Virus record (IMG/VR): IMGVR_UViG_3300028025_004184
Location: 1-60,134 of that record
Reading direction: 5' to 3' (one strand)
Origin: a virus
DNA length: 60,134 nt
Of this stretch, positions 1 to 59,045 are shown piece by piece. Each line of letters opens with the position of its first letter. Positions within the stretch are counted from its first letter, which is position 1. The translations under genes and the position numbers were made by a program. The notes under the pieces are model-generated. The model had not been told where the DNA came from. It saw only the letters and a program-made list of their open reading frames with translations, and made no database searches.

Positions 1-131
1 AGGATAGCCATATTAATCTGGTCTAGTTGCGATCTTAAGTTTTTAGCCTCTTCACTTGTCCAGCCATAAAACTCAACGTAAACATCTAATTTCTTTTCGA
101 TTGTTTCAACTTTTGCTTGTAAATCTTTCAT
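1..131 (-). CDS. Small coiled-coil protein (partial, runs off left edge)
   Basis: Leftward reading frame starting at the ATG at 131-129. It is open to the window edge, so only the first 43 residues are visible. A good ribosome site (AAAGGAAATTAT) lies just upstream. The visible part is charged and helical (KVETIEKKLDVYVEFYGW) and looks like a short coiled coil. It is the first gene downstream of the promoter at 170-198. Not recognised. Confidence 0.75.
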   Translation of the reverse strand, partial: MKDLQAKVETIEKKLDVYVEFYGWTSEEAKNLRSQLDQINMAI

Positions 132-169
132 ATAATTTCCTTTGTTTTGTTGTTCGTTTCCTTAAAGAG

Positions 170-198
170 ATATTACCAGAAATGAAATAATGCGTCAA
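170..198 (-). promoter_or_regulatory. Sigma70-type promoter with extended -10
   Basis: On the minus strand: TTGACG, 17-base spacer, TAATAT, with TGG directly before the -10 (TGn extension). Predicted start near 163, about 30 bases before the gene at 131. It diverges from the late-type element at 228-248. Confidence 0.75.
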
Positions 199-227
199 CA
201 ACAAAGTGACAATCTCCTAACTTTTTT

Positions 228-248
228 ATAGCACCCTCATATAATGAG
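228..248 (+). promoter_or_regulatory. Late-type phage promoter element
   Basis: TAGCACCCTCATATAATGAGG matches the late-gene element (consensus CACCCTTATATTA) with C in place of the second T. The 3' part forms the palindrome CCTCAT-ATA-ATGAGG. No protein gene follows on this strand, only the structured non-coding stretch 249-576, so it is the likely promoter of that RNA. Confidence 0.6.
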
Positions 249-425
249 GATAAAGACTCGCATTGACTTTAGTCGGGACCGTGAAAAAAAGCAGACCTTA
301 GACCTTTTAAGCTCTGTCAGCGTATGCCCCTGAGATAGCATAACTTGTCATCGTGGGATAATGAGACAAGCGGAATGCCCCTAAATCAATGACAATTTAC
401 GCCAAGGTTGATGAAACGAGACTAG

Positions 426-442
426 TTGGCACAGACTTTGCA
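426..442 (+). promoter_or_regulatory. Sigma54-like -24/-12 site 1
   Basis: TTGGCACA-GACT-TTGCA. GG and GC dinucleotides are separated by 10 bases as in sigma54 promoters (consensus TGGCACG-N4-TTGCW). It lies inside the candidate RNA A, so it could also be chance conservation of RNA sequence. Confidence 0.4.
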
Positions 443-543
443 AGGAAAGTGTTGAGTACTTGGAAAGGCATAAAACGGCATGTCAAGCAATGACAGCTTA
501 GTTCTTTTGCGCCCTATTGTCAAATTAAAATCATTTATAAAGG

Positions 544-574
544 AAAACAGCCTAGGCATAACCTAAGCTGTTTT
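544..574 (+). terminator. Hairpin, possible end of RNA A
   Basis: AAAACAGC (544-551) pairs perfectly with GCTGTTTT (567-574). An inner TAGG/CCTA helix and a CATAA loop follow after one mismatch. The short T run at the 3' side suggests an intrinsic terminator. Confidence 0.5.
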
Positions 575-651
575 AAAGGTAGGATAAGACTCGCCACCAG
601 CGTTTTGACGGCCTGAAAGGGCCTCTGGTGACTTGCCCGACTAGTAGTGTA

Positions 652-744
652 TTAGTTGATCTCGAAGGCTTTGAGCAAAAGCTCTGATCTTGAGATTATG
701 TTAAGTGTTATTAAAAGTATCACTAAGCCTATGTAATTTCTCAT
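652..744 (-). CDS. 30-residue membrane peptide
   Basis: ATG at 744-742 preceded by the strong ribosome site AAGGGGATAAT, the same AAGGGGA type used by other early genes here. The peptide is one hydrophobic helix (GLVILLITLNII, residues 6-17) followed by a short polar tail. No family recognised. The minus-strand sigma54-like site at 1076-1092 and weak sigma70-like sequence near 770 could serve it. Very short, but the ribosome site argues it is real. Confidence 0.5.
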   Translation of the reverse strand: MRNYIGLVILLITLNIISRSELLLKAFEIN

Positions 745-863
745 ATTATCCCCTTGCTTAAAACAATATTACATCACAACGCATCAAAATACAATAGCCA
801 AACAAAATAAAGTTTTGTCAAGCCATTTATTTGCAATCTTGAAAATAATTCCCTTGACAAGCA

Positions 864-880
864 TTGGCACGAGTCTTGCA
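864..880 (+). promoter_or_regulatory. Sigma54-like -24/-12 site 2 (exact consensus)
   Basis: TTGGCACG-AGTC-TTGCA, identical to the published sigma54 consensus TGGCACG-N4-TTGCW, with exact GG-N10-GC spacing. It points right, where no plus-strand gene follows. Confidence 0.65.
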
Positions 881-925
881 TTAGCAAAGCCAATTACCAG
901 CGTATATTCTTGCAAAGAAAATGTT

Positions 926-942
926 TTGGCATGGCTTTTGCG
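926..942 (+). promoter_or_regulatory. Sigma54-like -24/-12 site 3
   Basis: TTGGCATG-GCTT-TTGCG. All key dinucleotides are at the right spacing. It lies 46 bases after the end of site 2 on the same strand. Confidence 0.55.
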
Positions 943-1056
943 TTATTGCATTGCTTTCCAGAAATGCTATAATAAGTTAACACCAGCGAAACAAGGCAAG
1001 TTGGATAAAAGAGCCTGACAGTAATCAAGATTAGGGGAAAAGCAAGCAAAAAAAAA

Positions 1057-1073
1057 TAGGCAAGAAACTTGCA
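1057..1073 (+). promoter_or_regulatory. Sigma54-like -24/-12 site 4
   Basis: TAGGCAAG-AAAC-TTGCA. Weaker -24 half, perfect spacing. It is part of a 36-base imperfect repeat (1059-1094) that recurs at 2339-2374. Confidence 0.45.
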
Positions 1074-1075
1074 TC

Positions 1076-1092
1076 TGCAAGGCCCATGCCAA
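1076..1092 (-). promoter_or_regulatory. Sigma54-like -24/-12 site 5
   Basis: On the minus strand TTGGCATG-GGCC-TTGCA. It begins only a few bases beyond the early operon terminator and points left toward the membrane peptide gene at 744. Confidence 0.6.
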
Positions 1093-1095
1093 GCT

Positions 1096-1117
1096 AAAAA
1101 AGCTCCCCGAAGGGAGC
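1096..1117 (-). terminator. Early operon terminator with UUCG tetraloop
   Basis: Read leftward: GCTCCC-TTCG-GGGAGC followed by a T run. C(UUCG)G is the ultra-stable tetraloop. It lies 16 bases after the last gene of the leftward early operon. Confidence 0.9.
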
Positions 1118-1132
1118 GTAGCGACTGGAGAG

Positions 1133-1378
1133 TTAAACCATCGCCATAGCTGATTTTAGCACGTTGGGCTTAAGGATAGCGTCTGTTAGCATTTGGAGTT
1201 GATTCTTGTCTTCAAGTTCCATGCCAAAGTGGTTGAACAGCATATCATTGACCAGATCAGTCTCGTTGCCTCGCCACCCAAGTTCGTCAAGCTCATAGTC
1301 AAGGTCTGAAAACATTGCCAAGAATTGTTGGCGTTGTTGCTTGTTTAGTCTCTTAAGTATTTGTAATAAATAAATCAT
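1133..1378 (-). CDS. Early protein, 81 residues, unknown
   Basis: ATG start with ribosome site AAGAGGATCAAC. Acidic, helical protein (MIYLLQILKRLNKQQRQQFL... DLDYELDELGW) with no recognisable domain. Last gene before the UUCG terminator and probably co-transcribed with the genes at 1598 and 1933. The C-terminus ends AMAMV and lacks the SSLxKEL tag of the genes upstream. Confidence 0.75.
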   Translation of the reverse strand: MIYLLQILKRLNKQQRQQFLAMFSDLDYELDELGWRGNETDLVNDMLFNHFGMELEDKNQLQMLTDAILKPNVLKSAMAMV

Positions 1379-1400
1379 GTTGATCCTCTTTGTTTAGTAA

Positions 1401-2431: not shown

Positions 2432-2495
2432 ATTAGAGTGTGGAGATGGATGTGAATATGCTTCACAATATATTTCCCACTTTATAGTTAGTCTG

Positions 2496-2726
2496 TCACA
2501 ACAATTCTAGCTCAAGGCTACTTAGCTCATCAATCACTGACCAGTCGCTAGGATAAAGATATACGGTACGCCCATCCTCATTATTCGACACAATCACAGC
2601 TGGGTAGTAAATATCCTCTCCAGACGCTCTAGCTTCGGCCACAATCCTAACTATGTAGGTATCCTCGTTCCAAGGGTCATACAGGGAATGCTTGATCTTA
2701 TAGACCCTATTAACCTGCAATTTCAT
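2496..2726 (-). CDS. Small early protein, SSLxxELL-tail family
   Basis: 76 residues. Looks like a small beta barrel (MKLQVNRVYKIKH at the start, alternating hydrophobics) and ends in DELSSLELELL. Its ATG overlaps the stop of the gene upstream by 4 bases (ATGA), so the two are translationally coupled. Overall layout resembles its two upstream neighbours: a strand-rich body, a W or Y near the end, then the shared tail. Unknown function. Confidence 0.85.
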   Translation of the reverse strand: MKLQVNRVYKIKHSLYDPWNEDTYIVRIVAEARASGEDIYYPAVIVSNNEDGRTVYLYPSDWSVIDELSSLELELL

Positions 2727-2938
2727 AGCAGCTCCACTTCCAAGGAGGTGAGCTTAACGACGTTATCCCAGTATGAGGGGGTAATAGCCACTATGCCGTA
2801 GTTATAGCCACTATCTGAGCTTAACTTACATTTGTAGGATTCGCTAAGACTATCTTCAATTTTATTAAGGGTATAGACTATGTATATGTCAATAGGTATG
2901 AGATCTTGCCAGACTTTATAATAAGTATTTAATTCCAT
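2723..2938 (-). CDS. Small early protein, SSLxxELL-tail family
   Basis: 71 residues, strand-rich body, C-terminus VVKLTSLEVELL. Starts 1 base into the stop of the preceding gene (TAATG type overlap at 2938). Likely a diverged paralogue of the genes at 2726 and 3156. Unknown function. Confidence 0.85.
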   Translation of the reverse strand: MELNTYYKVWQDLIPIDIYIVYTLNKIEDSLSESYKCKLSSDSGYNYGIVAITPSYWDNVVKLTSLEVELL

Positions 2939-3156
2939 TAATAAAGCTCCGCTTCCAGACTGGACAGCCTTCGTATCTCTACGTCATAGAAATAATAGCC
3001 CATTGGTATTAGAACCATTACTCCACCAAATGCGAACTCAATGTCAAAGTATCTATCATAGGAAAAGCCATATATGTAATTACAAGCAGTTATCCTAACT
3101 ACTTCGTCATTCATCCAGAACATATCATTCTCTTTAGTGTCTGGAGGAAAGCTCAC
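2938..3156 (-). CDS. Small early protein, SSLxxELY-tail family
   Basis: 72 residues, aromatic and strand-rich (IYGFSYDRYFDIEF), C-terminus IRRLSSLEAELY. Overlaps the upstream gene end by 4 bases. Member of the same tail family. Unknown function. Confidence 0.85.
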   Translation of the reverse strand: MSFPPDTKENDMFWMNDEVVRITACNYIYGFSYDRYFDIEFAFGGVMVLIPMGYYFYDVEIRRLSSLEAELY

Positions 3157-3290
3157 CCAAGTTCCTTTCCAAGAAGGGTTTTCCTGAATGTTAGCTCATC
3201 TTCTAAAGCCTTGACTTCCGTATAATACTCAGAACTCCACATAGCGTACATATCAAGCAATGTCTCTAAGTCATCAGTTTCTAATTGCAT
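3153..3290 (-). CDS. Small early helical protein, LLGKELG tail
   Basis: The reading frame can start at 3353, but that would overlap the upstream gene by 47 bases. The ATG at 3290 gives a 45-residue protein (MQLETDDLETLLDMY...) and clears the upstream stop. Helical, acidic, ending RKTLLGKELG. The tail is nearly identical to that of the gene at 3737 (STLLGKELN). Start choice is uncertain. Confidence 0.65.
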   Translation of the reverse strand: MQLETDDLETLLDMYAMWSSEYYTEVKALEDELTFRKTLLGKELG

Positions 3291-3306
3291 TATAGCACTT
3301 CTGTAT

Positions 3307-3552
3307 TTAGAATAACTGCTTTCCGAGTCCTGTGTTTTTAAAGAAATGGACATGCTTCTCAGCTCTCTTGTATTCTGGAGTATTATGGACTTGCCTATAA
3401 TCTCCGTATAATCGTTGGGTTAAAATTCTAGCATTAACGTCTTCAGTTATCTTATATGCTTTATCTAAAAGCATAAATTCCACACACTTATCAAATAGTA
3501 TTGTACTGGCTTCTTCGATTGACATCGTATTCCAGTTGGGTAATGTCGTCAA
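3307..3552 (-). CDS. Small early protein, LGKQLF tail
   Basis: 81 residues, mostly helical (MSIEEASTILFDKCVEFMLL), ending FKNTGLGKQLF, a variant of the shared tail. Overlaps the upstream gene stop by 4 bases. No domain recognised. Confidence 0.8.
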   Translation of the reverse strand: MTTLPNWNTMSIEEASTILFDKCVEFMLLDKAYKITEDVNARILTQRLYGDYRQVHNTPEYKRAEKHVHFFKNTGLGKQLF

Positions 3553-3737
3553 TTCAATTCTTTTCCTAGTAGGGTAGAGTTTAGTCTGTCACGTATAAGC
3601 TTCGCTTCTTCCATAGCGTCTATAATCTCAATTGCTGTCATTCCAGATACTCTGTCTTCTAGAGTTTGCATATCTAGATCGCAAAATCCATTAGATACAA
3701 GGTGATGAACTAGCCAATCTTGTTGTTTCTGACTCAT
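3549..3737 (-). CDS. Small early protein, LLGKELN tail
   Basis: 62 residues, helical, starting MSQKQQDWLVHHLVSNGF and ending RLNSTLLGKELN. Similar in tail and in the preceding helix to the gene at 3290. Separated by 1 base from the gene upstream. Unknown function. Confidence 0.8.
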   Translation of the reverse strand: MSQKQQDWLVHHLVSNGFCDLDMQTLEDRVSGMTAIEIIDAMEEAKLIRDRLNSTLLGKELN

Positions 3738-3738
3738 A

Positions 3739-4095
3739 CTAATCCTTTATGGTTACAGTAAATCCTACAAGCTTACCGTCTTTCATCTTCTTTTTAACAC
3801 TAAATGAGCCACCTTGCAAGTGAGTATTTAATAAAACTCCTCTGCCCGGTAGGTATGGCCCAAGTTCCACGTTAGTCTCAGTGTCACCTACCATGTCAAA
3901 CGTCCTATCAATAGTATTAAAAGGATTTAGAGGGTCTTTTGGCGTTACATCCACTGTCTCACCTGTGGCAGGATCTAGCTCAACTACCTTACTTCCTGCG
4001 AAGAATTGGCAGTCTCCGATGAAGATTACCCCGCTTTGAATGCTGCCTTTGAGATCCACTTTATTTTTTCTTGATTTTTTAGTTTTATTTGTCAT
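3739..4095 (-). CDS. Early protein, 118 residues, unknown
   Basis: Basic N-terminus (MTNKTKKSRKNK), then a strand-rich domain with proline and glycine turns (DPATGETVDVTPKDPLNPF, LPGRGVLL). It ends KDGKLVGFTVTIKD and lacks the shared tail. Overlaps the upstream gene by 4 bases. The body resembles a small beta-sandwich, but no family was recognised. Confidence 0.8.
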   Translation of the reverse strand: MTNKTKKSRKNKVDLKGSIQSGVIFIGDCQFFAGSKVVELDPATGETVDVTPKDPLNPFNTIDRTFDMVGDTETNVELGPYLPGRGVLLNTHLQGGSFSVKKKMKDGKLVGFTVTIKD

Positions 4096-4301
4096 AGCAA
4101 CTCCTTAATTAGGGATGGAGGGTCGAGTATTAGCGACTTCCTCAGTACAGTATATCCATCTTTATCAATATTTTTAAATACATAGCCTTCAGACTCACAA
4201 TACTCACAGAAGGCCATATAGCGTTTGAAGAACTCTGACCATATAACCTGACCTTCTACCAGATTATCCAGCTCTAATCCAACGGTCTTTTTCTTAGACA
4301 T
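4092..4301 (-). CDS. Small early protein, SLIKELL tail
   Basis: 69 residues. Contains an aromatic middle part (FFKRYMAFCEYCESEGYVF) and ends LDPPSLIKELL, a match to the shared tail. Its start overlaps the preceding gene by 28 bases. Confidence 0.8.
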   Translation of the reverse strand: MSKKKTVGLELDNLVEGQVIWSEFFKRYMAFCEYCESEGYVFKNIDKDGYTVLRKSLILDPPSLIKELL

Positions 4302-4576: not shown

Positions 4577-4804
4577 TTATCTCAATTCTGCCAGCAATGG
4601 TTGATGTTTTTCTATATTATCCACAAAATCTTGGTATTGTCGCATAGTGCTCGGACTTACTAGGTAGATATAAGCGTCTTCTCTGTCATAATACCCAGAA
4701 GCATCCCATAAATAGGCTATATTATCTGGAATATATAGCTGACACTGGACTTCTTTTCCAGAAAAATAGATGTGTCGTAGGTTCTCAGTTGTTATCTTTA
4801 GCAT
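4577..4804 (-). CDS. Small early protein, PLLAELR tail
   Basis: 75 residues from the ATG at 4804. A GTG three codons upstream is the alternative, and neither has a clear ribosome site. Strand-rich body with many aromatics (YLWDASGYYDREDAYIYL), C-terminus HQPLLAELR, a loose version of the shared tail. Confidence 0.7.
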   Translation of the reverse strand: MLKITTENLRHIYFSGKEVQCQLYIPDNIAYLWDASGYYDREDAYIYLVSPSTMRQYQDFVDNIEKHQPLLAELR

Positions 4805-4886
4805 ATCTGTCACTTTTTATCTAGTTGCCTATACTTTTATCTGTCACTAGCACAGGAATTTTGCTACACCTTCAAATTGGTATGTG

Positions 4887-49669: not shown

Positions 49670-50217
49670 GATCCTACAATCCAATGTTTTTCATTAGCTT
49701 TATACTTCGGAAGTTCTTCTTGCTCAAATAAAGCCTTATCTAAAAACCTAATTCTATACTGTGGATAAAGCATAAGATAGCCATCATTTGTCTGAATGGC
49801 GTGTAACTGTTTCCAGTGAGTAGGGTGGCGAGAAAACCCCTCTCCAACAAAATCTATAGTAAAAAGATACTTTCCAGACTTGGCTGGTATCATATCAGGC
49901 TTAACTTCACACTCAGCGTACCTAAGAGTTTCCATAACAAAAAAGTCAATGTCATCGCTTACACAGTCCCACATCTGAGCGTCTTGAAGGTTTATAAGCC
50001 CATTAAACTCGTCCTCTCTAAAGGTTATGGCATGTGCCGGTAGTCCAGTAAAAAGAGCACCATTGTCCAATAAAATGCTAAATTGCAAAGCTTGGTTTTG
50101 TCTAGCCCTTACAGACACTAAATGTCCAGCCGTTTTGCCATAGAAGTTAGAGTCATCATTAAATAAGAACCTATTCCAAACATACACACGAATTGGAGGC
50201 AAGTTAGCGTTACTCAT
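49666..50217 (-). CDS. Conserved phage protein of unknown function, 183 residues
   Basis: ATG at 50217 overlaps the ClpX-like gene stop by 4 bases (ATGA). Begins MSNANLPPIRVYVWNRFLF, a start seen in conserved proteins of other large phages (NLPPIRVYVRxxYLY...), with LDNGALFTGLPAHAI and LINLQDAQMWDCVSDDI following that pattern (family from memory). The coupling to the ClpX-like gene suggests a partner or substrate adaptor, inferred. Confidence 0.75.
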   Translation of the reverse strand: MSNANLPPIRVYVWNRFLFNDDSNFYGKTAGHLVSVRARQNQALQFSILLDNGALFTGLPAHAITFREDEFNGLINLQDAQMWDCVSDDIDFFVMETLRYAECEVKPDMIPAKSGKYLFTIDFVGEGFSRHPTHWKQLHAIQTNDGYLMLYPQYRIRFLDKALFEQEELPKYKANEKHWIVGS

Positions 50218-51143
50218 CCCCAAACCCACTTAGGTTTACCACTCAACACTACCATAGAGTCTAGCGTGAATTGTTTTGGTTTAATCGCTAAGCTAGGGGC
50301 CTCAAACTGAGCGTTTAGCAAAGCTTCATCCAGTACACTGTGTAAGCCCCTAGCTCCTAATCCCTTCTCAATAGCCTTCTGCGCTATGATGTTAATAGCA
50401 CTATCTTCTACCACAAGCTCAATACCTTCGCTCAAAAACCACTCTTTAAACGAGTTTAGAATAGACCCCTTAGAGTCACGTAGGATCTTCCTGTAATCGT
50501 CAAATTTAAGCTCCTGAAGCTGTGTGATAACCGGGAATCTTCCAAGAAACTCAGGTATCATGCCAAAGTCCGTTAAACTCTGCACACTTGACGACTCTAG
50601 CCCTATAAAAGCACCAGAGCATATAAACATAATATCTTTAGTGTTCATCTTCTTATCATACTCGCCATTCTGAGAGTATTTAGAAATATATGGAACATCA
50701 CTACCTTCCAGTAGTTTTAGAAGTGACTGCTGCACTCCAAGACCATTAACATCTGGTCCATTTCCGTCATTAGATTTTTTACGAAGCTTATCTATCTCAT
50801 CGATGTATATAATAGACTTTGAGGCCTTATACTCGTTGCCTTCGCATATACCCAGTAAGTCTGTTATAAGTTCTTCTACACTTCTTCCCTGATATCCAGA
50901 GGAAGTGAACTGAGTTGCGTCACTTGTCAAAAAGTTAACGCCTAGTATTTGAGCCAGTATGGACACTAGATATGTCTTGCCACACCCAGTAGGTCCGATT
51001 AATAGCACGTTAGACTTTTTAATAGTACTGCCGTTCATTCTTTTAAAATGGTTATAAGCGGCCACAGACAAGGCTCTTTTAGTTTTCTCATGACCGATAA
51101 CGTACTCATCTAGCTGCTTTTTAATTTCTTCTGGAGTTTTCAT
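50214..51143 (-). CDS. ClpX-like AAA+ unfoldase lacking the ClpP-docking loop
   Basis: 309 residues. Clear ClpX homology: TPEEIKKQLDEYVIGHEKTK start, Walker A GPTGCGKT (50-57), pore loop GYQG (83-86, GYVG in ClpX), Walker B IIYIDE (111-116), GVQQSLLKLLEGS, arginine finger in PEFLGRFPV (R202), sensor 2 GLGARGLHSVLDEAL. It has no N-terminal zinc domain, the RKH loop is replaced (NGEYDKK), and the stretch that carries the IGF loop for ClpP binding is gone: only about 10 residues lie between GAFIGLE and FGMIPEFLG. So it probably remodels proteins without feeding ClpP. Confidence 0.9.
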   Translation of the reverse strand: MKTPEEIKKQLDEYVIGHEKTKRALSVAAYNHFKRMNGSTIKKSNVLLIGPTGCGKTYLVSILAQILGVNFLTSDATQFTSSGYQGRSVEELITDLLGICEGNEYKASKSIIYIDEIDKLRKKSNDGNGPDVNGLGVQQSLLKLLEGSDVPYISKYSQNGEYDKKMNTKDIMFICSGAFIGLESSSVQSLTDFGMIPEFLGRFPVITQLQELKFDDYRKILRDSKGSILNSFKEWFLSEGIELVVEDSAINIIAQKAIEKGLGARGLHSVLDEALLNAQFEAPSLAIKPKQFTLDSMVVLSGKPKWVWG

Positions 51144-52038: not shown

Positions 52039-52809
52039 TTAAAAAGTCAAACTAACTTTTTTGTTTCTTACTTCAATAAACTTTCTAGCATGTGAGAAGT
52101 TTTCTTTCTTAACATCTCTAGAGAACTTGATATCAATAGGAGCTGGAAGCAATGGACATGCCGAGAACACTACATTAATGATACCGAATGGAGTAGAAAC
52201 TTCTTCTGTGATCTCATCTTCAATAAGAGCTTTATCACATGTAACATCAGCTACTTGATCAGCTTGTCCAGTTTTTACAGCGTTCTCTCCAAAGCTCCAA
52301 AGCTCATTAACGATAGAGGCTTCGTAGTCTTTTAGAGGAATACCGATTCGTTTAGCAGCAGCTTTGTTCATGCCAGACAATACTTGATGAATTAGATCAA
52401 GTCTAGAATCTAGTTCTCCGGGAACTTGCCCAGACAGTCCTGAGATTGCACCTCTGTGACTCATCAATGTTCCAGATGGAGTGATGTATCGAATACCGAG
52501 TTGCTGAACTACTTGATAGCCCATAGATGCAGCTGATAGTGTAATTGTGTGAACAGGAATCTTTAGTGACTTAATTGTATCAATAAATCTTAGACCGTCC
52601 GCAACAGATCCACCCGGAGTGTCTAGAACTAAATAAAGCTTATTTGAAGACGTAGACTTAGCAAATACTTCCATGATCTTTTTAGCAACATACAGTCCAG
52701 TAAATGGCTGGTTAAAAACTACACTATTATCTTTAGTAAGTGTAATTTGTGCATTTTTAGCGAAGGCAGTATTGCAAATTAAAGCAATAATCATAATTAA
52801 TTTTAACAT
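52039..52809 (-). CDS. ClpP-like serine protease with export signal
   Basis: 256 residues. Signal peptide: K3, hydrophobic IMIIALICNT, AFA cleavage site before K18. ClpP/crotonase fold: PGGSVADG (65-72) oxyanion loop, nucleophile S95 in SAASMGYQ, H118 in LMSHRGAISG. At the usual third triad position (RDxFMS in ClpP) there is N168 in VNELWSFGE, so the acid seems to be missing. It lies in the same operon as the ClpX-like gene but would be outside the cytoplasm after export. Substrate unknown; periplasmic host protein degradation or lysis support are options. Confidence 0.85.
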   Translation of the reverse strand: MLKLIMIIALICNTAFAKNAQITLTKDNSVVFNQPFTGLYVAKKIMEVFAKSTSSNKLYLVLDTPGGSVADGLRFIDTIKSLKIPVHTITLSAASMGYQVVQQLGIRYITPSGTLMSHRGAISGLSGQVPGELDSRLDLIHQVLSGMNKAAAKRIGIPLKDYEASIVNELWSFGENAVKTGQADQVADVTCDKALIEDEITEEVSTPFGIINVVFSACPLLPAPIDIKFSRDVKKENFSHARKFIEVRNKKVSLTF

Positions 52810-52886: not shown

Positions 52887-53204
52887 TTATTTCTTACACT
52901 CTCCAATTAATACTACTCCGTCCAAAAATCCTCCTCTTTCCAAGAACTTAGCTTCTCTTTTTTCGAAGATTAGGTCGGTTATATTTTGCTTAACTGCTAT
53001 GGCTCTGATAACTTCAAGCACATCTGCCAACTCTTCTGCAAGGTCAGATATGGACTCTGCACCAGCCACTTCGTTAGCTTCCTCTACGATCTTATTCTTC
53101 AATAATTGGAGCATCTCATCATCAGACGCTTTCCTAGTATTAAGAGTTTCACCTCTTTTAGAATATACATACTCTACTATCTTGTCACGAACTAATTTTT
53201 CCAC
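52887..53204 (-). CDS. MazG-like nucleotide pyrophosphohydrolase
   Basis: 105 residues, GTG start overlapping the upstream stop. MEKLVRDKIVEYV, then KIVEEANEVAGAESISDLAE and ELADVLEVIRAIAVKQN give the ExxE...ExxD metal motif of the MazG/HisE all-alpha superfamily. Expected to hydrolyse nucleoside triphosphates (dNTP pool cleaning or alarmone lowering). Confidence 0.85.
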   Translation of the reverse strand: MEKLVRDKIVEYVYSKRGETLNTRKASDDEMLQLLKNKIVEEANEVAGAESISDLAEELADVLEVIRAIAVKQNITDLIFEKREAKFLERGGFLDGVVLIGECKK

Positions 53205-53347
53205 TAAAGTAACTCCCTTCCAAGAGCAGTTTTCTGCAACTCTTTCTCCAATTCACGATCTTCTAACAGTTCCTTCGCTTCTTCTATTGATATAAGACCT
53301 GACTCTAATAGAATAAGCATTAATTGAACTTTACTGTCAAAACTCAT
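53204..53347 (-). CDS. 47-residue protein with LGRELL tail
   Basis: ATG at 53347 overlaps the upstream HNH stop (ATGA); TAG stop overlaps the GTG of the MazG-like gene. All-helical acidic peptide (LILLESGLISIEEAKELLED) ending QKTALGRELL, the shared C-terminal tail of the early small proteins, 48 kb away. Confidence 0.75.
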   Translation of the reverse strand: MSFDSKVQLMLILLESGLISIEEAKELLEDRELEKELQKTALGRELL

Positions 53348-53709
53348 TTCTTATTCTCTCTTCTAGCCAATGCCCTATCACCTCTTTCAGCCAAGCTCTT
53401 AGATTTATGGCAAATCCAGCATATGCTCTGAACATTGTCCTCTTCACAAAACATTCTAGTTATCACCTTATTCCAATCCTTATTCTTACCAGAGTCTTCA
53501 ACTGGAATAACTGGCTCAATATGATCAACATCCATTCTACCAGCTATAGCTGTTGGATAGTCATTTCTTATAGACTCTATAGATCTTTTTCCAGTATAAA
53601 TTATTTGCTTGCATAAAGGGCATTTATGAAGCTCAGGGCCTATCTTAGTCTTTTTCTTTGCCCTTAATATTGGAGGCCACTGCTTTGTCAACTTTCTTAA
53701 TGCCGACAT
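53344..53709 (-). CDS. HNH-type endonuclease, zinc-binding
   Basis: 121 residues from ATG 53709 (a GTG at 53757 would add 16 residues but overlaps the upstream gene by 113 bases). HKCPLCKQI and ICWICHKSK supply four cysteines; MDVDHIEPVIPVED is the catalytic HNH part, with FCEEDNVQSICWICH. This conserved phage type sits among replication genes and probably acts on DNA in recombination or packaging rather than as a homing enzyme. Confidence 0.8.
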   Translation of the reverse strand: MSALRKLTKQWPPILRAKKKTKIGPELHKCPLCKQIIYTGKRSIESIRNDYPTAIAGRMDVDHIEPVIPVEDSGKNKDWNKVITRMFCEEDNVQSICWICHKSKSLAERGDRALARRENKK

Positions 53710-54064
53710 TATTTTTGATTCGAATTTCTTGTCCACTAGGTTTCTCCGGTTTAACACTTACTACTTCTACTTTAGGATCAGGATACCTAACCAGCTTATC
53801 TTTTATAGCCGTAAGACCATAGTCTTGTAACATATTAAAAGCACTAACCTGTGGTAGCATTTTTCCATAGAACGGACTTCTAAACCAGTCCCCAACTAGC
53901 ACTATATATAATTGCTTATTATCTAGCTCTACCAAGGTTCCACTATTATTGGACAATATCGTAGCCTTAACTGGAGTTACCCAGTCTTTTTTTGTGGCAT
54001 CAGCAGCATTGCTGTTTACAACATCATCCAGTGTAATTCTAATTCCTCTAACTAATTTACTCAA
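53645..54064 (-). CDS. Unknown protein, 139 residues
   Basis: TTG start at 54064, overlapping the upstream stop. Beta-rich first part (IRITLDDVVNSN, VKATILSNNSGTLVEL, LYIVLVGDWFRSPFYGKML), lysine-rich end (KVDKAVASNIKGKEKD). The C-terminal 20 codons overlap the HNH gene in another frame. Not recognised. Confidence 0.65.
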   Translation of the reverse strand: MSKLVRGIRITLDDVVNSNAADATKKDWVTPVKATILSNNSGTLVELDNKQLYIVLVGDWFRSPFYGKMLPQVSAFNMLQDYGLTAIKDKLVRYPDPKVEVVSVKPEKPSGQEIRIKNNVGIKKVDKAVASNIKGKEKD

Positions 54065-54233
54065 CTTCTACCTCGCAATAATCTTCTTCGTTTCCGCTAA
54101 TTCTCATATAATATTCAGTCTGATCTACTGAGATGCATCCACACTTACAAGTAACATACTCTCCGGGATATCTGGAGCTTATTATATCTGCACAGTTATT
54201 ACATCTAAGTTTAACAGGCTCAAAATAAGTCAT
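54057..54233 (-). CDS. Small zinc-ribbon protein (DUF7695-like), 58 residues
   Basis: CNNC (11-14) and CKCGC (29-33) with ISSRYPGEYVTC and ISVDQTEYYMRISGN between and after: the pattern CxxC..S....xFVxCxCG..xVD..xYxRxxGN of a widespread small phage and bacterial family. Function unknown. ATGA overlaps with the upstream gene. Confidence 0.75.
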   Translation of the reverse strand: MTYFEPVKLRCNNCADIISSRYPGEYVTCKCGCISVDQTEYYMRISGNEEDYCEVEVE

Positions 54234-54499
54234 TTCTTCCTCACTGATCTATACCCACAAGCTGACTCACATAAGTCTAAATATCCCATAGGTAACTCTG
54301 TTGTCTTTACTGAAGCTCCGCACTTAGGACATTCTCTTTCTACCACTTTCTTAACAAACTTTTCAGGCTTAGTAATCTTAACATCTTTTTCTTTTTCTTT
54401 CAACAATTTTTTTAGTTTAGCAACCTCTTGCTTGAGATCCTTTATTTGACGCTCCATCTCATATTCTATTTCTAAGTTAGCTTTTCGTTTTCTTCCCAT
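54230..54499 (-). CDS. Coiled-coil zinc-finger protein, 89 residues
   Basis: Start taken at MGRKRKANLE (54499). Coiled coil (MERQIKDLKQEVAKLKKLLK), basic linker, then CPKCGASVKTTELPMGYLDL with CESAC as a four-cysteine zinc site. May bind nucleic acid or be an adaptor. Unknown. Confidence 0.75.
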   Translation of the reverse strand: MGRKRKANLEIEYEMERQIKDLKQEVAKLKKLLKEKEKDVKITKPEKFVKKVVERECPKCGASVKTTELPMGYLDLCESACGYRSVRKK

Positions 54500-54534
54500 T
54501 AGATACCTCAAGTAAGTATATTTATGATCTATCT

Positions 54535-54708
54535 TTACTTTTCTTTGACTTCATATACCTTTCCATCAATATAAACAATATTTGTTTTAAGACTGGTTTT
54601 TGACACAAACTCTTCAACTATGATCCATCCAGTCACGCCTAACATTATCACAAAGCTTATGTAAAATCCAATTAAAAAACTATTCATACATTTTATAAAT
54701 CTCATCAT
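54535..54708 (-). CDS. 57-residue single-span membrane protein
   Basis: ATG overlaps the upstream stop. One transmembrane helix (FLIGFYISFVIMLGVTGWII, residues 11-30) and a polar tail (VEEFVSKTSLKTNIVYIDGK). Unknown. Confidence 0.6.
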   Translation of the reverse strand: MMRFIKCMNSFLIGFYISFVIMLGVTGWIIVEEFVSKTSLKTNIVYIDGKVYEVKEK

Positions 54709-54914
54709 TTACTCATTTCTTGAATAAGCTTATCTAAGTATATTTTAGCTTTTTTCAAATCCTCAATACCATTCTTTTCTTTATATCTCCAGACGTATTT
54801 GATTATATTACCCTCTAAGAAGTTCATTTCCTGATCTATGATTACGTCCCAGCATTCTAATTTACCACGCTTATTGTATCTAACTGGCTTTTCTACATCT
54901 TCTACTTTTTTCAT
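54705..54914 (-). CDS. DUF3310 family protein, 69 residues
   Basis: VEKPVRYNKRGKLECWDVI, NFLEGNIIKYVWRYKEKNG and IEDLKKAKIYLDKLIQ match the DUF3310 consensus (HYxxGxxExIdxI...FxxGNxIKYxwRyxxKng.eDLkKAxwYLxxLi). Common in phage replication modules, sometimes called nucleotide kinase; role not established. Confidence 0.9.
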   Translation of the reverse strand: MKKVEDVEKPVRYNKRGKLECWDVIIDQEMNFLEGNIIKYVWRYKEKNGIEDLKKAKIYLDKLIQEMSK

Positions 54915-55147
54915 AGCACAACCTCGTCTGCAGCTTGGTTTAGATAATCCTTTACTTCTTTCTCACTTAAAGCCATCCACTCACATATATCCTCTATTTT
55001 CTCGTCACATACATATAACATACATACAAACCACTTAACTCCACCAATGTGAATTAGTCCGTCCATAGCTAATCTTACCTCAGACTTGGTAGGAATGCCA
55101 TAAATGAATCTGTGAATTTTAAAAATAATTTTAGCTATTTTTTTCAT
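54911..55147 (-). CDS. Helix-turn-helix-like protein, 78 residues
   Basis: Basic start, hydrophobic middle (GGVKWFVCMLYVC), then DEKIEDICEWMALSEKEVKD with YLNQAADEV, which reads as a helix-turn-helix of the sigma region 4 type. Could be a small regulator. Assignment by pattern only. Confidence 0.6.
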   Translation of the reverse strand: MKKIAKIIFKIHRFIYGIPTKSEVRLAMDGLIHIGGVKWFVCMLYVCDEKIEDICEWMALSEKEVKDYLNQAADEVVL

Positions 55148-55473
55148 CGTAAAAAAAAGTTTAGAATTTGGTCTACCATTAAAAACATTTCTGCACCATG
55201 CTCTCCAAATATCTCAGCGCAAACCTCTTCCATTTGATCTGCGGTTAGGCTAGAGGAGTTTATACTGCAACACATTACATAAGCATGCATAAGCTCGTGC
55301 CTAACATACTCTGGAGATAATTCAGATAGCTTAAAAAAAATCTCATGCTCTTTTGTGTATGTAATAGCGTGACTATCTCTTCCGTGTAGTCTATGATAGG
55401 TAGAAGTTGCTTGAGCGTAGATTTTCCAATCTACACCCTTTATCTTAACTGTAAGAAACTTAGACTTTTTCAT
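55144..55473 (-). CDS. Small zinc-metallopeptidase-like protein, 109 residues
   Basis: HELMHAY (residues 60-66, in YVRHELMHAYVMC) is an HExxH motif, with a downstream acidic helix (MEEVCAEIFGEHG) that could give the third ligand. The layout resembles small phage peptidases with a SprT-like core. Unknown substrate. Confidence 0.7.
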   Translation of the reverse strand: MKKSKFLTVKIKGVDWKIYAQATSTYHRLHGRDSHAITYTKEHEIFFKLSELSPEYVRHELMHAYVMCCSINSSSLTADQMEEVCAEIFGEHGAEMFLMVDQILNFFLR

Positions 55474-55670
55474 TTTAATCTCTTAATTATATCTTCCTCT
55501 TCACCATCAAGATTAGCTCTAATATACTCTCCAATTACTAATCCGTCAACCCAATAGAAATCCTTGTTCATTTCTATAATAGGTTTTGCAAAACTTAATG
55601 CATCATTCTTATCTTCAAAGCTCTTGAATTTTGGAGTACCGTCGTCTACGTATAACACCGTGTATTTCAC
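55470..55670 (-). CDS. Unknown small protein, 66 residues
   Basis: Start MKYTVLYVDDGTPKFKSFED, then KNDALSFAKPIIEMNKDFYW and an acidic end. Small alpha/beta protein; overlaps both neighbours by 4 bases. Confidence 0.75.
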   Translation of the reverse strand: MKYTVLYVDDGTPKFKSFEDKNDALSFAKPIIEMNKDFYWVDGLVIGEYIRANLDGEEEDIIKRLK

Positions 55671-56476
55671 TTCTTACCTTTACTTGCGTTATAGGCTCTC
55701 ATAGCATCAGTTACTTTAGCATTACCTTTAGCAAATTTAGCAAGAGTTTCTACAAAAAGCTCTTCCATACTAAGTACATCAAATTGATTATATTTCTTCA
55801 TACATTCCCAAGCTTTTCTATTACCTTTCATACATTGATCCCATAGATCCCATCCGGGAAATTGCTTATGCGATTGTTTTTTATATTTTCTATTGAAACG
55901 CTCAGTCATGTAAGCTAAGCTATACCAAGGAAGTCTTAAGTGCCTTTTAGCAATCTTCTTAGTATCTATAGTCTTATACTCATCTGGAACTGGAAGTTTA
56001 TGCTCTGCAATTCTATTATTTATTTCTCCATAATCAAATCCATCACCATTTTGCCAAATAATAATATCGGACTCACTCATTAACTTAACTAATGGTTTTA
56101 ATAAATCTTTTTCATTCATTAAATTCTTTTCATTTCCACGCTGATCTTTATAAAAAATCTCCTTTTCTCCAATCCATTTAGCTGACCAAGAAAGAATGGC
56201 TCCATCTTCAATCATCATATTATAACTAAGATTTTGTTGCCAAACACCCCAATGCCACGATTTCTTAGGCTTTGTTTCAATATCTACTAATAAAACTCTA
56301 GGAAGTTCTTTTTCTACATCTAAAGCATAAACGTCAATTGCATGCTTAATAGAATCTGGAGATCTAGTATAATTAAATCTAATTCTAAATTTCTTTGCAA
56401 TTTCAAATCTGGAATAACCTTTCTTGTAATGAGTAAGTACAAAAGTTATTTCCGTAGTGCTCCATTCTTTTTTCAC
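55667..56476 (-). CDS. 3'-5' exonuclease (DnaQ/RNase H fold) with N-terminal HTH
   Basis: 269 residues. N-terminal Myb/HTH-like helices (EITFVLTHYKKGYSRFEIAK, 9-28). Exonuclease: Exo I VDIET (64-68, D65 and E67), Exo II NGDGFDYGEINNR (N143, D148), Exo III YNQFDVLSMEEL near 225. This is the PolB-exonuclease-like group often paired with phage polymerases lacking proofreading; it probably acts with the family A polymerase at the right edge. Confidence 0.85.
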   Translation of the reverse strand: MKKEWSTTEITFVLTHYKKGYSRFEIAKKFRIRFNYTRSPDSIKHAIDVYALDVEKELPRVLLVDIETKPKKSWHWGVWQQNLSYNMMIEDGAILSWSAKWIGEKEIFYKDQRGNEKNLMNEKDLLKPLVKLMSESDIIIWQNGDGFDYGEINNRIAEHKLPVPDEYKTIDTKKIAKRHLRLPWYSLAYMTERFNRKYKKQSHKQFPGWDLWDQCMKGNRKAWECMKKYNQFDVLSMEELFVETLAKFAKGNAKVTDAMRAYNASKGKK

Positions 56477-56772
56477 TCCAACTCCTTTAATAATCCAGTT
56501 TTTTTACTAATCTCATATTCATGATAGTAACTCTCAACCATCTTACCATGACTCATATTACGAGGTAAACAAAAATATGTATATGGTCTAGAGTTTCTAG
56601 CAATTAAAATTATTTCGAACTCCGTGTCGTTAATCATTACAAACTCGCCAACTTTAAATCTAGGTTTTTTTAATTTCCTATAAATCCAATAATAAGCTTG
56701 TGTCAACTTCTCTGTGTGTAGAAGAATAATATTGATTATAAGCAATACTGCGACTATTATCATTATTACCAT
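56473..56772 (-). CDS. Membrane protein, 99 residues, LLKELE tail
   Basis: N-terminal transmembrane helix (VIMIIVAVLLIINIILL) then a soluble basic domain (YRKLKKPRFKVGEFVMINDT) of SH3-like look, ending KKTGLLKELE, a variant of the shared C-terminal tail. Overlaps neighbours by 4 and 1 bases. Confidence 0.75.
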   Translation of the reverse strand: MVIMIIVAVLLIINIILLHTEKLTQAYYWIYRKLKKPRFKVGEFVMINDTEFEIILIARNSRPYTYFCLPRNMSHGKMVESYYHEYEISKKTGLLKELE

Positions 56773-56903
56773 TATAGCTTATGTCCCAATAAAATTAACG
56801 TAGATATCAGCGTTATTGCTTGTATCAGCACCTGCGCAAACTGTAGCTTAGATTGTAGCTTTTGCAACTTAATTCTTTCCAAATGATAGTCTTCTGGTCT
56901 CAT
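56772..56903 (-). CDS. 43-residue membrane protein (possible holin)
   Basis: ATG overlaps the stop of the M15 peptidase gene (ATGA). Amphipathic start (MRPEDYHLERIKLQKLQSKL) and one transmembrane helix (LIQAITLISTLILLG). Immediately follows the probable endolysin in one operon, so a holin or pinholin role is plausible. Confidence 0.6.
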   Translation of the reverse strand: MRPEDYHLERIKLQKLQSKLQFAQVLIQAITLISTLILLGHKL

Positions 56904-57289
56904 GGCATGAAAAACCTTTTACCACTCTTAGGTGGCACTATTTGACAATGTACCCATGTTGTAGTTACAGAGAAGTCTTCAAACCAAAGACCAATGTTAC
57001 CACAAAACTCTTCGTTGTTTTTAATCCATCTCTGGAGATCTTTAATATCTTTACAAACTAAGTCACAAGCCTCTCCAGACAAATGCTTGCTTTTCATTGG
57101 AATTTGTGACTTATCAGTTATACCTTTATCTTTGTATATTCTTAGATGATCCTCTAGTGATCTGTAGCCAGAACTAATGCTTAATGGCTTACCGTAAGCT
57201 TCTCTTAACTGAGAAACAATAGCGTGTAAATCTTGCAAGTTTTCCCAGTGGTCTGCTGGAATTTTTAGTAGCTCTCTAAGTTCAATCAC
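56900..57289 (-). CDS. M15 family peptidase, probable endolysin
   Basis: 129 residues. SGYRS (40-44), SKHLSGEACD with zinc ligands H69 and D76, and WVHCQ with H114: the D-Ala-D-Ala carboxypeptidase / L-Ala-D-Glu endopeptidase signature. No cell wall binding domain and no signal peptide, so it needs a holin. Cleaves peptidoglycan stem peptides at lysis. Confidence 0.9.
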   Translation of the reverse strand: MIELRELLKIPADHWENLQDLHAIVSQLREAYGKPLSISSGYRSLEDHLRIYKDKGITDKSQIPMKSKHLSGEACDLVCKDIKDLQRWIKNNEEFCGNIGLWFEDFSVTTTWVHCQIVPPKSGKRFFMP

Positions 57290-57290
57290 A

Positions 57291-57881
57291 CTAACCTCTT
57301 AACGGATGATCTTCTGGAAACTCTTGCTGCATAATTTCAAGATTCTTTCCATACTTAAGCCAGTATATGCCATTTTCACCTTTTATAAAGCTATCAACCT
57401 TAGCAATGGCCCAATAAAGTATATTGAACTTTCCCCACTTTGTCAATATAAAGTGTCTATCCACTAATGGAACTGAGAATGCAAACCTATACAGCTGATC
57501 CATATTATTCTGCCACAGATAATTCCTGTGTTTACCTTTTATTTCAAGTAACTGCTTAATTGTAGAAATAAGGCTAAACTTAGGAATTGGGTATGGAGAG
57601 AAACTCCATCCGTTAAGATGACTTTGCTTTAGAAATCCCAAAGAAGCCATTCCTAGAATCTCATCTCTTGATATTGGAGGAGAAAACTTAGCAGGACTTC
57701 TTAGCAGAACTCCATTACCTCTACAGCTGTCGAAACACACTTTGAGCATAGACATATCTAATTCAAGCCCATACTTCTCTGCATAAGCCGTATATATCCA
57801 GCCGTTATTGCTTGGTATAATATTTCTGTCCTTAACTGGCTTGTCGTGATATCGTCCCCACATGTCAATGTAATTATTCAA
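57291..57881 (-). CDS. Unknown protein, 196 residues
   Basis: Starts MNNYIDMWGRYHDKPVKDRN; aromatic-rich, with FDSCRGNGVLLRSP and SRDEILGMASLGFLKQSHLN followed by WSFSPYP. This block is a pattern of conserved hypothetical phage proteins, from memory. No catalytic motif identifiable. One base from the endolysin gene. Confidence 0.75.
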   Translation of the reverse strand: MNNYIDMWGRYHDKPVKDRNIIPSNNGWIYTAYAEKYGLELDMSMLKVCFDSCRGNGVLLRSPAKFSPPISRDEILGMASLGFLKQSHLNGWSFSPYPIPKFSLISTIKQLLEIKGKHRNYLWQNNMDQLYRFAFSVPLVDRHFILTKWGKFNILYWAIAKVDSFIKGENGIYWLKYGKNLEIMQQEFPEDHPLRG

Positions 57882-58111
57882 AGTAACTCCTTTTCTAAGG
57901 AAGAAAGTTTTCTTACAAATCTATCTTGTTCGCAAGAAGCAATATGGACTTCAATATCATCTCCATCCCATACAGTACTCATCCATCGTATAAATATCAC
58001 ACTATTTCTCATTCTTTTAGAAATAACAACGTAGGACTCTCCAAGCATTGGATCATACCAAACCTCTCCAAATTTAGGAGATACGTCATTACTCTTTTTT
58101 CCATCTTTCAT
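57878..58111 (-). CDS. Small protein with SSLEKELL tail
   Basis: 77 residues from ATG 58111 (AAGAAGATT upstream); an earlier start would overlap the neighbour further. Strand-rich, SH3-like body (PKFGEVWYDPMLGESYVVIS) with the end VRKLSSLEKELL. Strikingly similar in plan to the early proteins at 2726-3156, 55 kb away. Confidence 0.8.
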   Translation of the reverse strand: MKDGKKSNDVSPKFGEVWYDPMLGESYVVISKRMRNSVIFIRWMSTVWDGDDIEVHIASCEQDRFVRKLSSLEKELL

Positions 58112-58292
58112 AATCTTCTTTCTTAACTCCACACTTAGCACAATCATACACTGAACTTGTTATAAGCACAATCTTTTTCCAGTCATGGCTGCATATTTTT
58201 TGATTCCAAGGTAGGTCTACTGTTTCCTTGCAATTTCTAGGAACAGGAGGAGGTAAGCAATCTTCGCCTTCATCGTCAGGAATCCAGAACAT
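58089..58292 (-). CDS. Small zinc-site protein, 67 residues
   Basis: MFWIPDDEGEDCLPPPVPRN, then KICSHDWKKIVLI and YDCAKCGVKKEDYERW. C/H/CxxC arrangement like a small zinc ribbon known in phage proteins. Unknown. Confidence 0.75.
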   Translation of the reverse strand: MFWIPDDEGEDCLPPPVPRNCKETVDLPWNQKICSHDWKKIVLITSSVYDCAKCGVKKEDYERWKKE

Positions 58293-58735
58293 TAAAACTC
58301 CAGAGATAAGCCTAAGCCAACTCTTTTAGAGGTATCAACTATTCCAACGGCTGATACGTTACCTATTAGTGGGATAGAAGCTATAACTCCTATATCTGCA
58401 CTTCTTTGTATATTATGAGCGTCTTTTATAGCCAAAACTCCAAGTGATATTGTAGACCCCTTGGATATTATCTTAGAAGTGCTACTACTAATAGAGGATG
58501 ATGTGTTAGATGAGGTATCTGATGTTTCTTCAGTAGTAGTGTCTGTTGTAGAAGTACCATCTGGCTTAATGACTGTAGTGGTACGAGTTTTTTTCTTTTC
58601 TTTCTTAGAAGAGGATGCTTGTTTAACTTCCACATACTTAGTAACTGTAACTATTTCTTGTTTAGGAGATAGCACATATCTTCCAATCAGTATGCAAACT
58701 GTAGCAATTATAAAATGAACTTTATACTTCATCAT
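58292..58735 (-). CDS. Membrane-anchored serine/threonine-rich protein, 147 residues
   Basis: N-terminal transmembrane helix (VHFIIATVCILIGRYVL), charged linker, long S/T-rich low-complexity segment (SDTSSNTSSSISSSTSK), then a beta-rich C-terminus ending GLGLSLEF. The layout (anchor, flexible periplasmic spacer, beta end with terminal F) suits a spanin-like or envelope-spanning protein, unproven. Confidence 0.7.
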   Translation of the reverse strand: MMKYKVHFIIATVCILIGRYVLSPKQEIVTVTKYVEVKQASSSKKEKKKTRTTTVIKPDGTSTTDTTTEETSDTSSNTSSSISSSTSKIISKGSTISLGVLAIKDAHNIQRSADIGVIASIPLIGNVSAVGIVDTSKRVGLGLSLEF

Positions 58736-58881
58736 TTTTTAATCCTCAAGCTCTTGATAAAATAAACTGCCGATATAATACCAAACAATAATCCTATTAT
58801 GTTGAATCTAGAATCTACTAAAAGTATGTTAACAAGTAAGCATGCATACCCACAAGTCAAGTATGTTAATTTCTTTTTCAT
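58732..58881 (-). CDS. 49-residue two-span membrane protein
   Basis: Two hydrophobic helices (LTYLTCGYACLLVNILL and IIGLLFGIISAVYFI) joined by a short polar turn, basic ends. ATGs overlap on both sides. Size and topology fit a small holin. No homologue recognised. Confidence 0.65.
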   Translation of the reverse strand: MKKKLTYLTCGYACLLVNILLVDSRFNIIGLLFGIISAVYFIKSLRIKK

Positions 58882-59045
58882 CCTAACTCTTTTCCTAAAC
58901 TAGATCTTCTACATAGTTCCTCAGCCAGTTCTTCATCGGTGAAATCTTCAAGAACAGAAAAATCTTTTATTTGAGCAAAGTCGCACAGAAATTCTTTGAG
59001 CATTTCATTATGATCTTCAATAATTTTTTGAATTTTATTATCCAT
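58878..59045 (-). CDS. 55-residue acidic helical protein, SSLGKELG tail
   Basis: Helical and acidic (EDHNEMLKEFLCDFAQ, LEDFTDEELAEELC) ending RRSSLGKELG. Clear member of the shared-tail set. Overlaps neighbours by 4 and 8 bases. Unknown. Confidence 0.75.
   Translation of the reverse strand: MDNKIQKIIEDHNEMLKEFLCDFAQIKDFSVLEDFTDEELAEELCRRSSLGKELG

Follow-up and report, generated by a model that had tools for sequence, protein, structure and literature searches.

A short C-terminal tail on the leftward proteins of a phage genome, spelled differently in different lineages: a possible docking peptide

The virus record IMGVR_UViG_3300028025_004184 (the window, meaning the whole linear stretch of 60,134 bp) encodes a terminase and a P22-like portal, and its rightward structural block is flanked by two leftward blocks. 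Here we analysed a short C-terminal peptide, the tail, with which a number of its leftward open reading frames (ORFs) end. Four tails in the distant leftward block, at 53204, 56473, 57878 (LSSLEKELL) and 58878, had been noticed in a sequence-only reading of the window and were confirmed in place. The early block adds eight tailed ORFs, so that the window total is 12. The tailed genes are the following:

2496..2726, minus strand: tailed SH3-like protein (AlphaFold2), 76 amino acids, ends SSLELELL
2723..2938, minus strand: tailed protein by the tail pattern, 71 amino acids, ends TSLEVELL
2938..3156, minus strand: tailed protein by the tail pattern, 72 amino acids, ends SSLEAELY
3153..3353, minus strand: tailed protein by the tail pattern, 66 amino acids, ends TLLGKELG
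3307..3552, minus strand: tailed all-helical protein (AlphaFold2), 81 amino acids, ends TGLGKQLF; homologue in L254 ends CPLRKALD
3549..3737, minus strand: tailed protein, 62 amino acids, ends TLLGKELN; homologue in L254 ends TELGRALL
4092..4301, minus strand: tailed protein by the tail pattern, 69 amino acids, ends PSLIKELL
4577..4813, minus strand: tailed protein by the tail pattern, 78 amino acids, ends QPLLAELR
53204..53347, minus strand: tailed protein, 47 amino acids, ends TALGRELL; orthologues in G001 and G003 both end TSLGKELF
56473..56772, minus strand: tailed protein, 99 amino acids, ends TGLLKELE; hydrophobic N-terminal segment by inspection
57878..58147, minus strand: tailed protein, 89 amino acids, ends SSLEKELL; body homologue in G028 ends CSLLRALL
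58878..59045, minus strand: tailed protein, 55 amino acids, ends SSLGKELG; orthologue in G010 ends TSLGKELK

The restriction of the tail to leftward genes, which had also been claimed, holds for the complete window. When all window ORFs were searched with the pattern L[GELIAV].[EQ]L.$, 12 minus-strand and no plus-strand ORFs were found, whereas the chance expectation at 40 internal offsets was 0.28 (plus) and 0.15 (minus) per offset. A generic motif search based on expectation maximization gave noisy results and failed to recover loci known to be tailed. Therefore, the final counts use explicit patterns, controlled by strand or by internal offsets. For the lineages G019, G024 and G033 and for the cultured Vibrio phage phiKT1024, these patterns were written after viewing the C-termini; therefore, significance rests on the controls and not on the choice of pattern.

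The two leftward blocks had been proposed to form one continuous unit, and two relatives bear this out. In G003, a single contig of 69.7 kb, the orthologues of 53204, 56473 and 57878 and the early block follow in order on one strand without interruption. The near-complete relative G001 (81,765 bp) has identical ends of 126 bp. Window positions 4-1394 match G001 79,269-80,725 and positions 2419-2500 match G001 122-203; thus the window runs across the ends of G001 and the leftward blocks join. G001 contains 23 tailed leftward ORFs, spread over 48-79 kb and the early block, and many of them lie in the stretch that is absent from the window. The tail is also kept across related records. Ten of these records contained 134 tailed ORFs (73 non-redundant) with the consensus [ST]-[SPG]-L-[EGLIM]-x-E-L-phi-COOH. 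Leucine at position -6, E or Q at -3 and L or M at -2 were each present in 73/73. In the window lineage the tail comprises about 8 residues, and exactly one residue always remains after E-L. A search for the host among genome contigs matched only DNA polymerases, with an identity at or below 30%.

For nine families, conservation of the tail was compared among orthologues with that of the remaining protein, the body. Residues -7 to -2 were 86% identical, in contrast to 47% for the bodies, while the share of identical residues whose codon had changed synonymously was nearly the same (0.50 in the tail and 0.47 in the bodies). The codons of the tail are mixed. Its two serine positions use TCN and AGY at 23:17 and 23:19, glutamate uses GAG and GAA at 38:32, and leucine is split between TTR and CTN. 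Based on the higher identity at equal synonymous divergence and the mixed serine codons, the tail is under selection at the protein level.

These codon data rule out as the main cause, and make hardly credible, that the tail is a by-product of the DNA, in which the Shine-Dalgarno sequence of an overlapping next gene is read as K-E (encoded by AAGGAG) or a stop-codon or reinitiation signal is translated. Such an origin would fit the layout, with 52/73 tailed genes overlapping or abutting the next ORF (119/208 untailed), but just 40/73 tails contain a Shine-Dalgarno core, and other lineages have A, G or I in place of E. Tails are furthermore found on genes without a downstream gene, such as G001 78617 and window 2496, the last gene of the early run, which has no abutting gene and no Shine-Dalgarno sequence within its tail. 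In G024 and G033, the distance from the tail to the stop codon varies. Both observations also weaken an action of the tail as a nascent peptide in termination or reinitiation.

The tail sits on many non-homologous bodies. BLAST sorted the tailed proteins and their homologues into 37 clusters, of which a few were spurious. In the AlphaFold2 model of 2496 (predicted local distance difference test, pLDDT, 89), a short C-terminal helix (residues 70-75) follows an SH3-like barrel. In the model of 3307, a helical-bundle body with values above 90 is followed by a tail of low confidence (pLDDT 48-67). Foldseek returned no significant match, only weak Tudor/SH3-like neighbours. Among these, HspQ (PDB 5ycq), a specificity-enhancing factor of the AAA+ protease Lon, resembled the SH3-like body with an E-value of 0.21 and a template modelling score of 0.55; this match is not significant and may reflect only a common small-barrel fold. 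Pfam and PHROGs searches with selected tailed proteins gave nothing useful except DUF6745. The DUF6745-type protein of G002 is shortened and ends SSLELELL, while its G007 homologue runs about 100 residues further. The G002 protein (L172-type locus, oriented 72231-72956) has N-Q-L repeats and sits between the MoxR and VWA genes described below; the G007 homologue has an S-N-L repeat and is without the tail. A second body, of the MGTRALIH type, ends TSLEIELT in G001, and its homologue in Vibrio phage 1.278.O has no tail.

It is therefore very improbable that the tailed proteins belong to a single, rapidly diverging paralogous family in which the last strand and helix are simply elements of the fold. 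Many members do look SH3-like with the tail as the last helix, and G024 members have a common hydrophobic strand before the tail. However, the same tail occurs on helical, DUF6745-type and MGTRALIH-type bodies, and its spelling in orthologues shifts with the genome. In the sequence-only reading the protein at 57878 was thought to resemble the early proteins in its body as well. This could not be upheld, because profile-profile comparison with the early SH3-like family aligned the final 18 columns only, which correspond to the tail and the strand preceding it.

The spelling of the tail differs between lineages. In G014, whose DNA polymerase is 78% identical to that of G001, 22 small proteins end like TPLMEALL (L..A[LM].), with A replacing E at -3. 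L076, a part of G014, accounts for 19 such tails (0.1 expected). Body homologues were compared after cutting the last ten residues. Homologues of the window protein 56473 (TGLLKELE) end SALTKALF in G014 and SGLLKGLE in G028, and further pairs were TSLEKELL/TPLEKALL, SSLEKELL/CSLLRALL, TGLGKQLF/CPLRKALD and TLLGKELN/TELGRALL. In G024, 48 ORFs on one strand but only 1 on the other end S-x-[ILV]-[ILF]-x-E-L-phi (S-x-I-I-x-E-L-L). The corresponding strand counts were 16 and 1 for SPLLRxIY in G019, and 32 and 1 for SK[LIV][ILV]xA[LI] (SKLIxALF) in G033. Five loci (L210, L214, L215, L216 and L220) have [YHF]PE[LEY][FL]I tails. In phiKT1024, 69 ORFs end PE.[FLMI][IVL] (YPELFI), all on one strand with 0.05 expected, and proline and glutamate codons are again mixed. 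No tail was detected in the relatives G007, G008, G009, G012, G020, G021, G022 and G025. As a side observation, a C-terminal stretch like NTRLARKMYPKA...GxLxI recurs in about 10 proteins of L201, and SPLAxYxxxLLxG in about 20 proteins of L226; L201 and L226 are MoxR-VWA loci, and the two stretches are possible further tag dialects. G023, with three doubtful tails, is another candidate.

Judged from these comparisons, the spellings change in concert within a genome, and orthologues follow the spelling of their own genome. Since unrelated bodies within a genome agree in one spelling and their homologues elsewhere agree in another, we infer one common reader per phage. Unrelated carriers, constraint on the protein and concerted change within a genome, which characterize a docking peptide, were all observed. 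One trans-acting partner per phage would bind the tail, and peptide and partner would change together.

A candidate for this partner came from the comparison of gene content. All four tailed lineages of about 80 kb (G001, G019, G024 and G033) encode a MoxR ATPase (G001 70432-71619 and homologues; PF07728, AAA_5) that adjoins a gene for a metallopeptidase-VWA co-protein (DUF2201; matches to PF13203 and PF09967), in contrast to 2/6 tail-less relatives. The HExxH motif (H91 E92 H95) and the DxSxS motif of the metal ion-dependent adhesion site (MIDAS; D294 S296 S298) of the co-protein are invariant in the four lineages. The other genes common to these lineages are pan-core genes and one small structural-block family. 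G033, previously unseen, was retrieved by a scan with the VWA alignment and turned out to be tailed. Further loci, among them L254, L248 and those with YPELFI tails, came from wider scans with the pair. No protein other than MoxR and VWA is common to phiKT1024 and all of G001, G019, G024 and G033.

We favor the reading that the tail is a C-terminal docking peptide for one trans-acting partner, that this partner is MoxR-VWA and that the tailed proteins are its clients or adaptors. As a whole, we give this reading a probability of roughly 0.45. The less certain step is the identity of the partner: the MoxR AAA+ ATPase and the metallopeptidase-VWA co-protein would together perhaps act as an ATP-driven chaperone or protease machine. 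Tailed proteins would dock on this machine as exchangeable clients or adaptors, with each body touching a different target. A flexible tail on many small, variable bodies fits such a plug, and the bodies may be adaptors and not substrates. For the window phage, the pair would be located in the stretch absent from the window, where G001 has it (69-72 kb). The MIDAS site of vWA domains mediates binding of extended or unstructured peptides (PMC7159879).

Several observations weigh against this assignment. The chance of finding the pair in 5/5 tailed lineages is 0.027, and 0.083 without the lineages that were found via VWA or MoxR, with small lineage counts in both cases; phiKT1024 and L254 were likewise found through the pair. 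MoxR-VWA is present without detected tails in G022, in G023 apart from its three doubtful ones, and in two N4-like phages, Moorella MTATph1, 4MG and Alteromonas AD45-P1. In AR9, which also has the pair, no tail was seen in the first 80 kb. Thus MoxR-VWA is not sufficient for tails, and the link between the two, drawn from co-occurrence, is circumstantial. In addition, YPELFI may have arisen by convergence and not from a common origin with SSLEKELL.

A degron was considered as well. In this case, the tail would expose early proteins to destruction by a protease at a set time, and the proteins that carry it would be substrates instead of adaptors. The C-terminal position of the tail, its flexibility in one model (3307) and its presence on proteins that are small and early agree with a degron, as does the HExxH metallopeptidase domain of the VWA partner; a co-evolving protease would likewise give concerted dialects. 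We nevertheless regard a degron as rather improbable; we know of no resemblance of the tail to known C-terminal degrons. The window itself encodes a ClpX-like AAA+ protein (50214-51143, minus strand) that adjoins the structural block and is 86-92% identical in close relatives. Its alignment with E. coli ClpX begins after the N-terminal zinc domain and skips chain residues 196-231, which we take to be the region of the ClpP-docking IGF loop. The tailed G019 and G024 lack the gene, whereas G021 and G026 have it although no tail was seen in them. Therefore, the ClpX-like protein is excluded as the general reader of the tail. A ClpP-like protease with a signal-peptide-like N-terminus is encoded at 52039-52809 (minus strand); it is conserved in nearly all relatives of about 80 kb, tailed or not, and has a counterpart in phiKT1024. 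With both genes present in the window, a ClpX-ClpP degron was a candidate, which is ruled out by the distribution and the missing IGF-loop region.

The tail could also dock on another common partner of phage or host origin, such as a replication or transcription hub, a scaffold, or a cargo receptor for packaging or a compartment. All core evidence for a trans-acting reader holds equally for such a partner, MoxR-VWA is insufficient for tails, and the tailed genes of G001 are interleaved with replication genes. However, the presence pattern of MoxR-VWA is matched by no other non-core gene, and no such gene links phiKT1024 to all four of the remaining tailed lineages. With a host receptor, it would not be easy to see why phages of the same type differ in spelling. 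We consider another partner somewhat unlikely.

MoxR-VWA pairs, docking peptides and degrons are already known kinds. Small bodies with a short C-terminal docking peptide are known from adaptors of AAA+ proteases, namely SspB with its ClpX-binding (XB) peptide. Docking of the tail on MoxR-VWA would resemble this arrangement, although SspB is one adaptor with one motif, whereas 12-69 proteins per phage carry the lineage-varying tail; no sequence resemblance was noted. In ternary conflict systems, a MoxR and vWA core is similarly coupled to variable modules via a common element, the effector-associated domains (EADs). Unlike the tail of about 8 residues, however, EADs are whole domains of cellular systems with homotypic pairing (PMC7159879). 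Pfam scans of selected proteins detected neither VMAP nor iSTAND, although no profile search was aimed at either. The same two-gene pair (DUF2201_N and DUF2201, AAA_5) occurs in jumbo phages and as N4 gp24/gp25-like genes. In the part of the jumbo-phage account available to us, the pair is called chaperone-cochaperone and proposed to serve virion assembly, with no mention there of common C-terminal tails on clients (PMC7824862). The phiTY18 paper does not mention the tail. Searches of open-access papers did not turn up a C-terminal tag with concerted, lineage-specific spellings on 12-69 proteins of one phage, which is weak evidence of absence. To our knowledge, no phage system of such kind has been described.

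Some further features lie beside the leftmost genes of the window. Four 39-nucleotide repeats (GGCA..TTGCA..TGCAA..ATGCCAAG) are located in non-coding stretches at 866-904, 1059-1097, 2289-2327 and 2339-2377, followed by a C run near 2420, and are possibly operator or regulatory sites. Directly 3' of gene 2496, with which the early run ends, the stretch 2467-2495 (minus strand; CAGACTAACTATAAAGTGGGAAATATATTGTG) is conserved in G001, G002, G006 and G013.

If docking on MoxR-VWA were extended to all tailed groups, several unrelated phage groups would use a modular adaptor system, in which dozens of small, swappable adaptors with lineage-specific C-terminal tags aim one phage-encoded MoxR-VWA machine at many host proteins, comparable to a ubiquitin ligase with many substrate receptors on one core; this extension is unlikely on present data. 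If the docking reading is true, one peptide tag would give a common function to dozens of small phage genes that cannot be annotated otherwise (12 here and 69 in phiKT1024) and a handle on the roles of orphan early genes. The genome-specific spellings would then be a natural series of tag-receptor co-evolution, and the cultured phage phiKT1024 makes the idea testable. The tail may also point to a role in client recognition for the widespread but poorly understood MoxR-VWA pair of phages.

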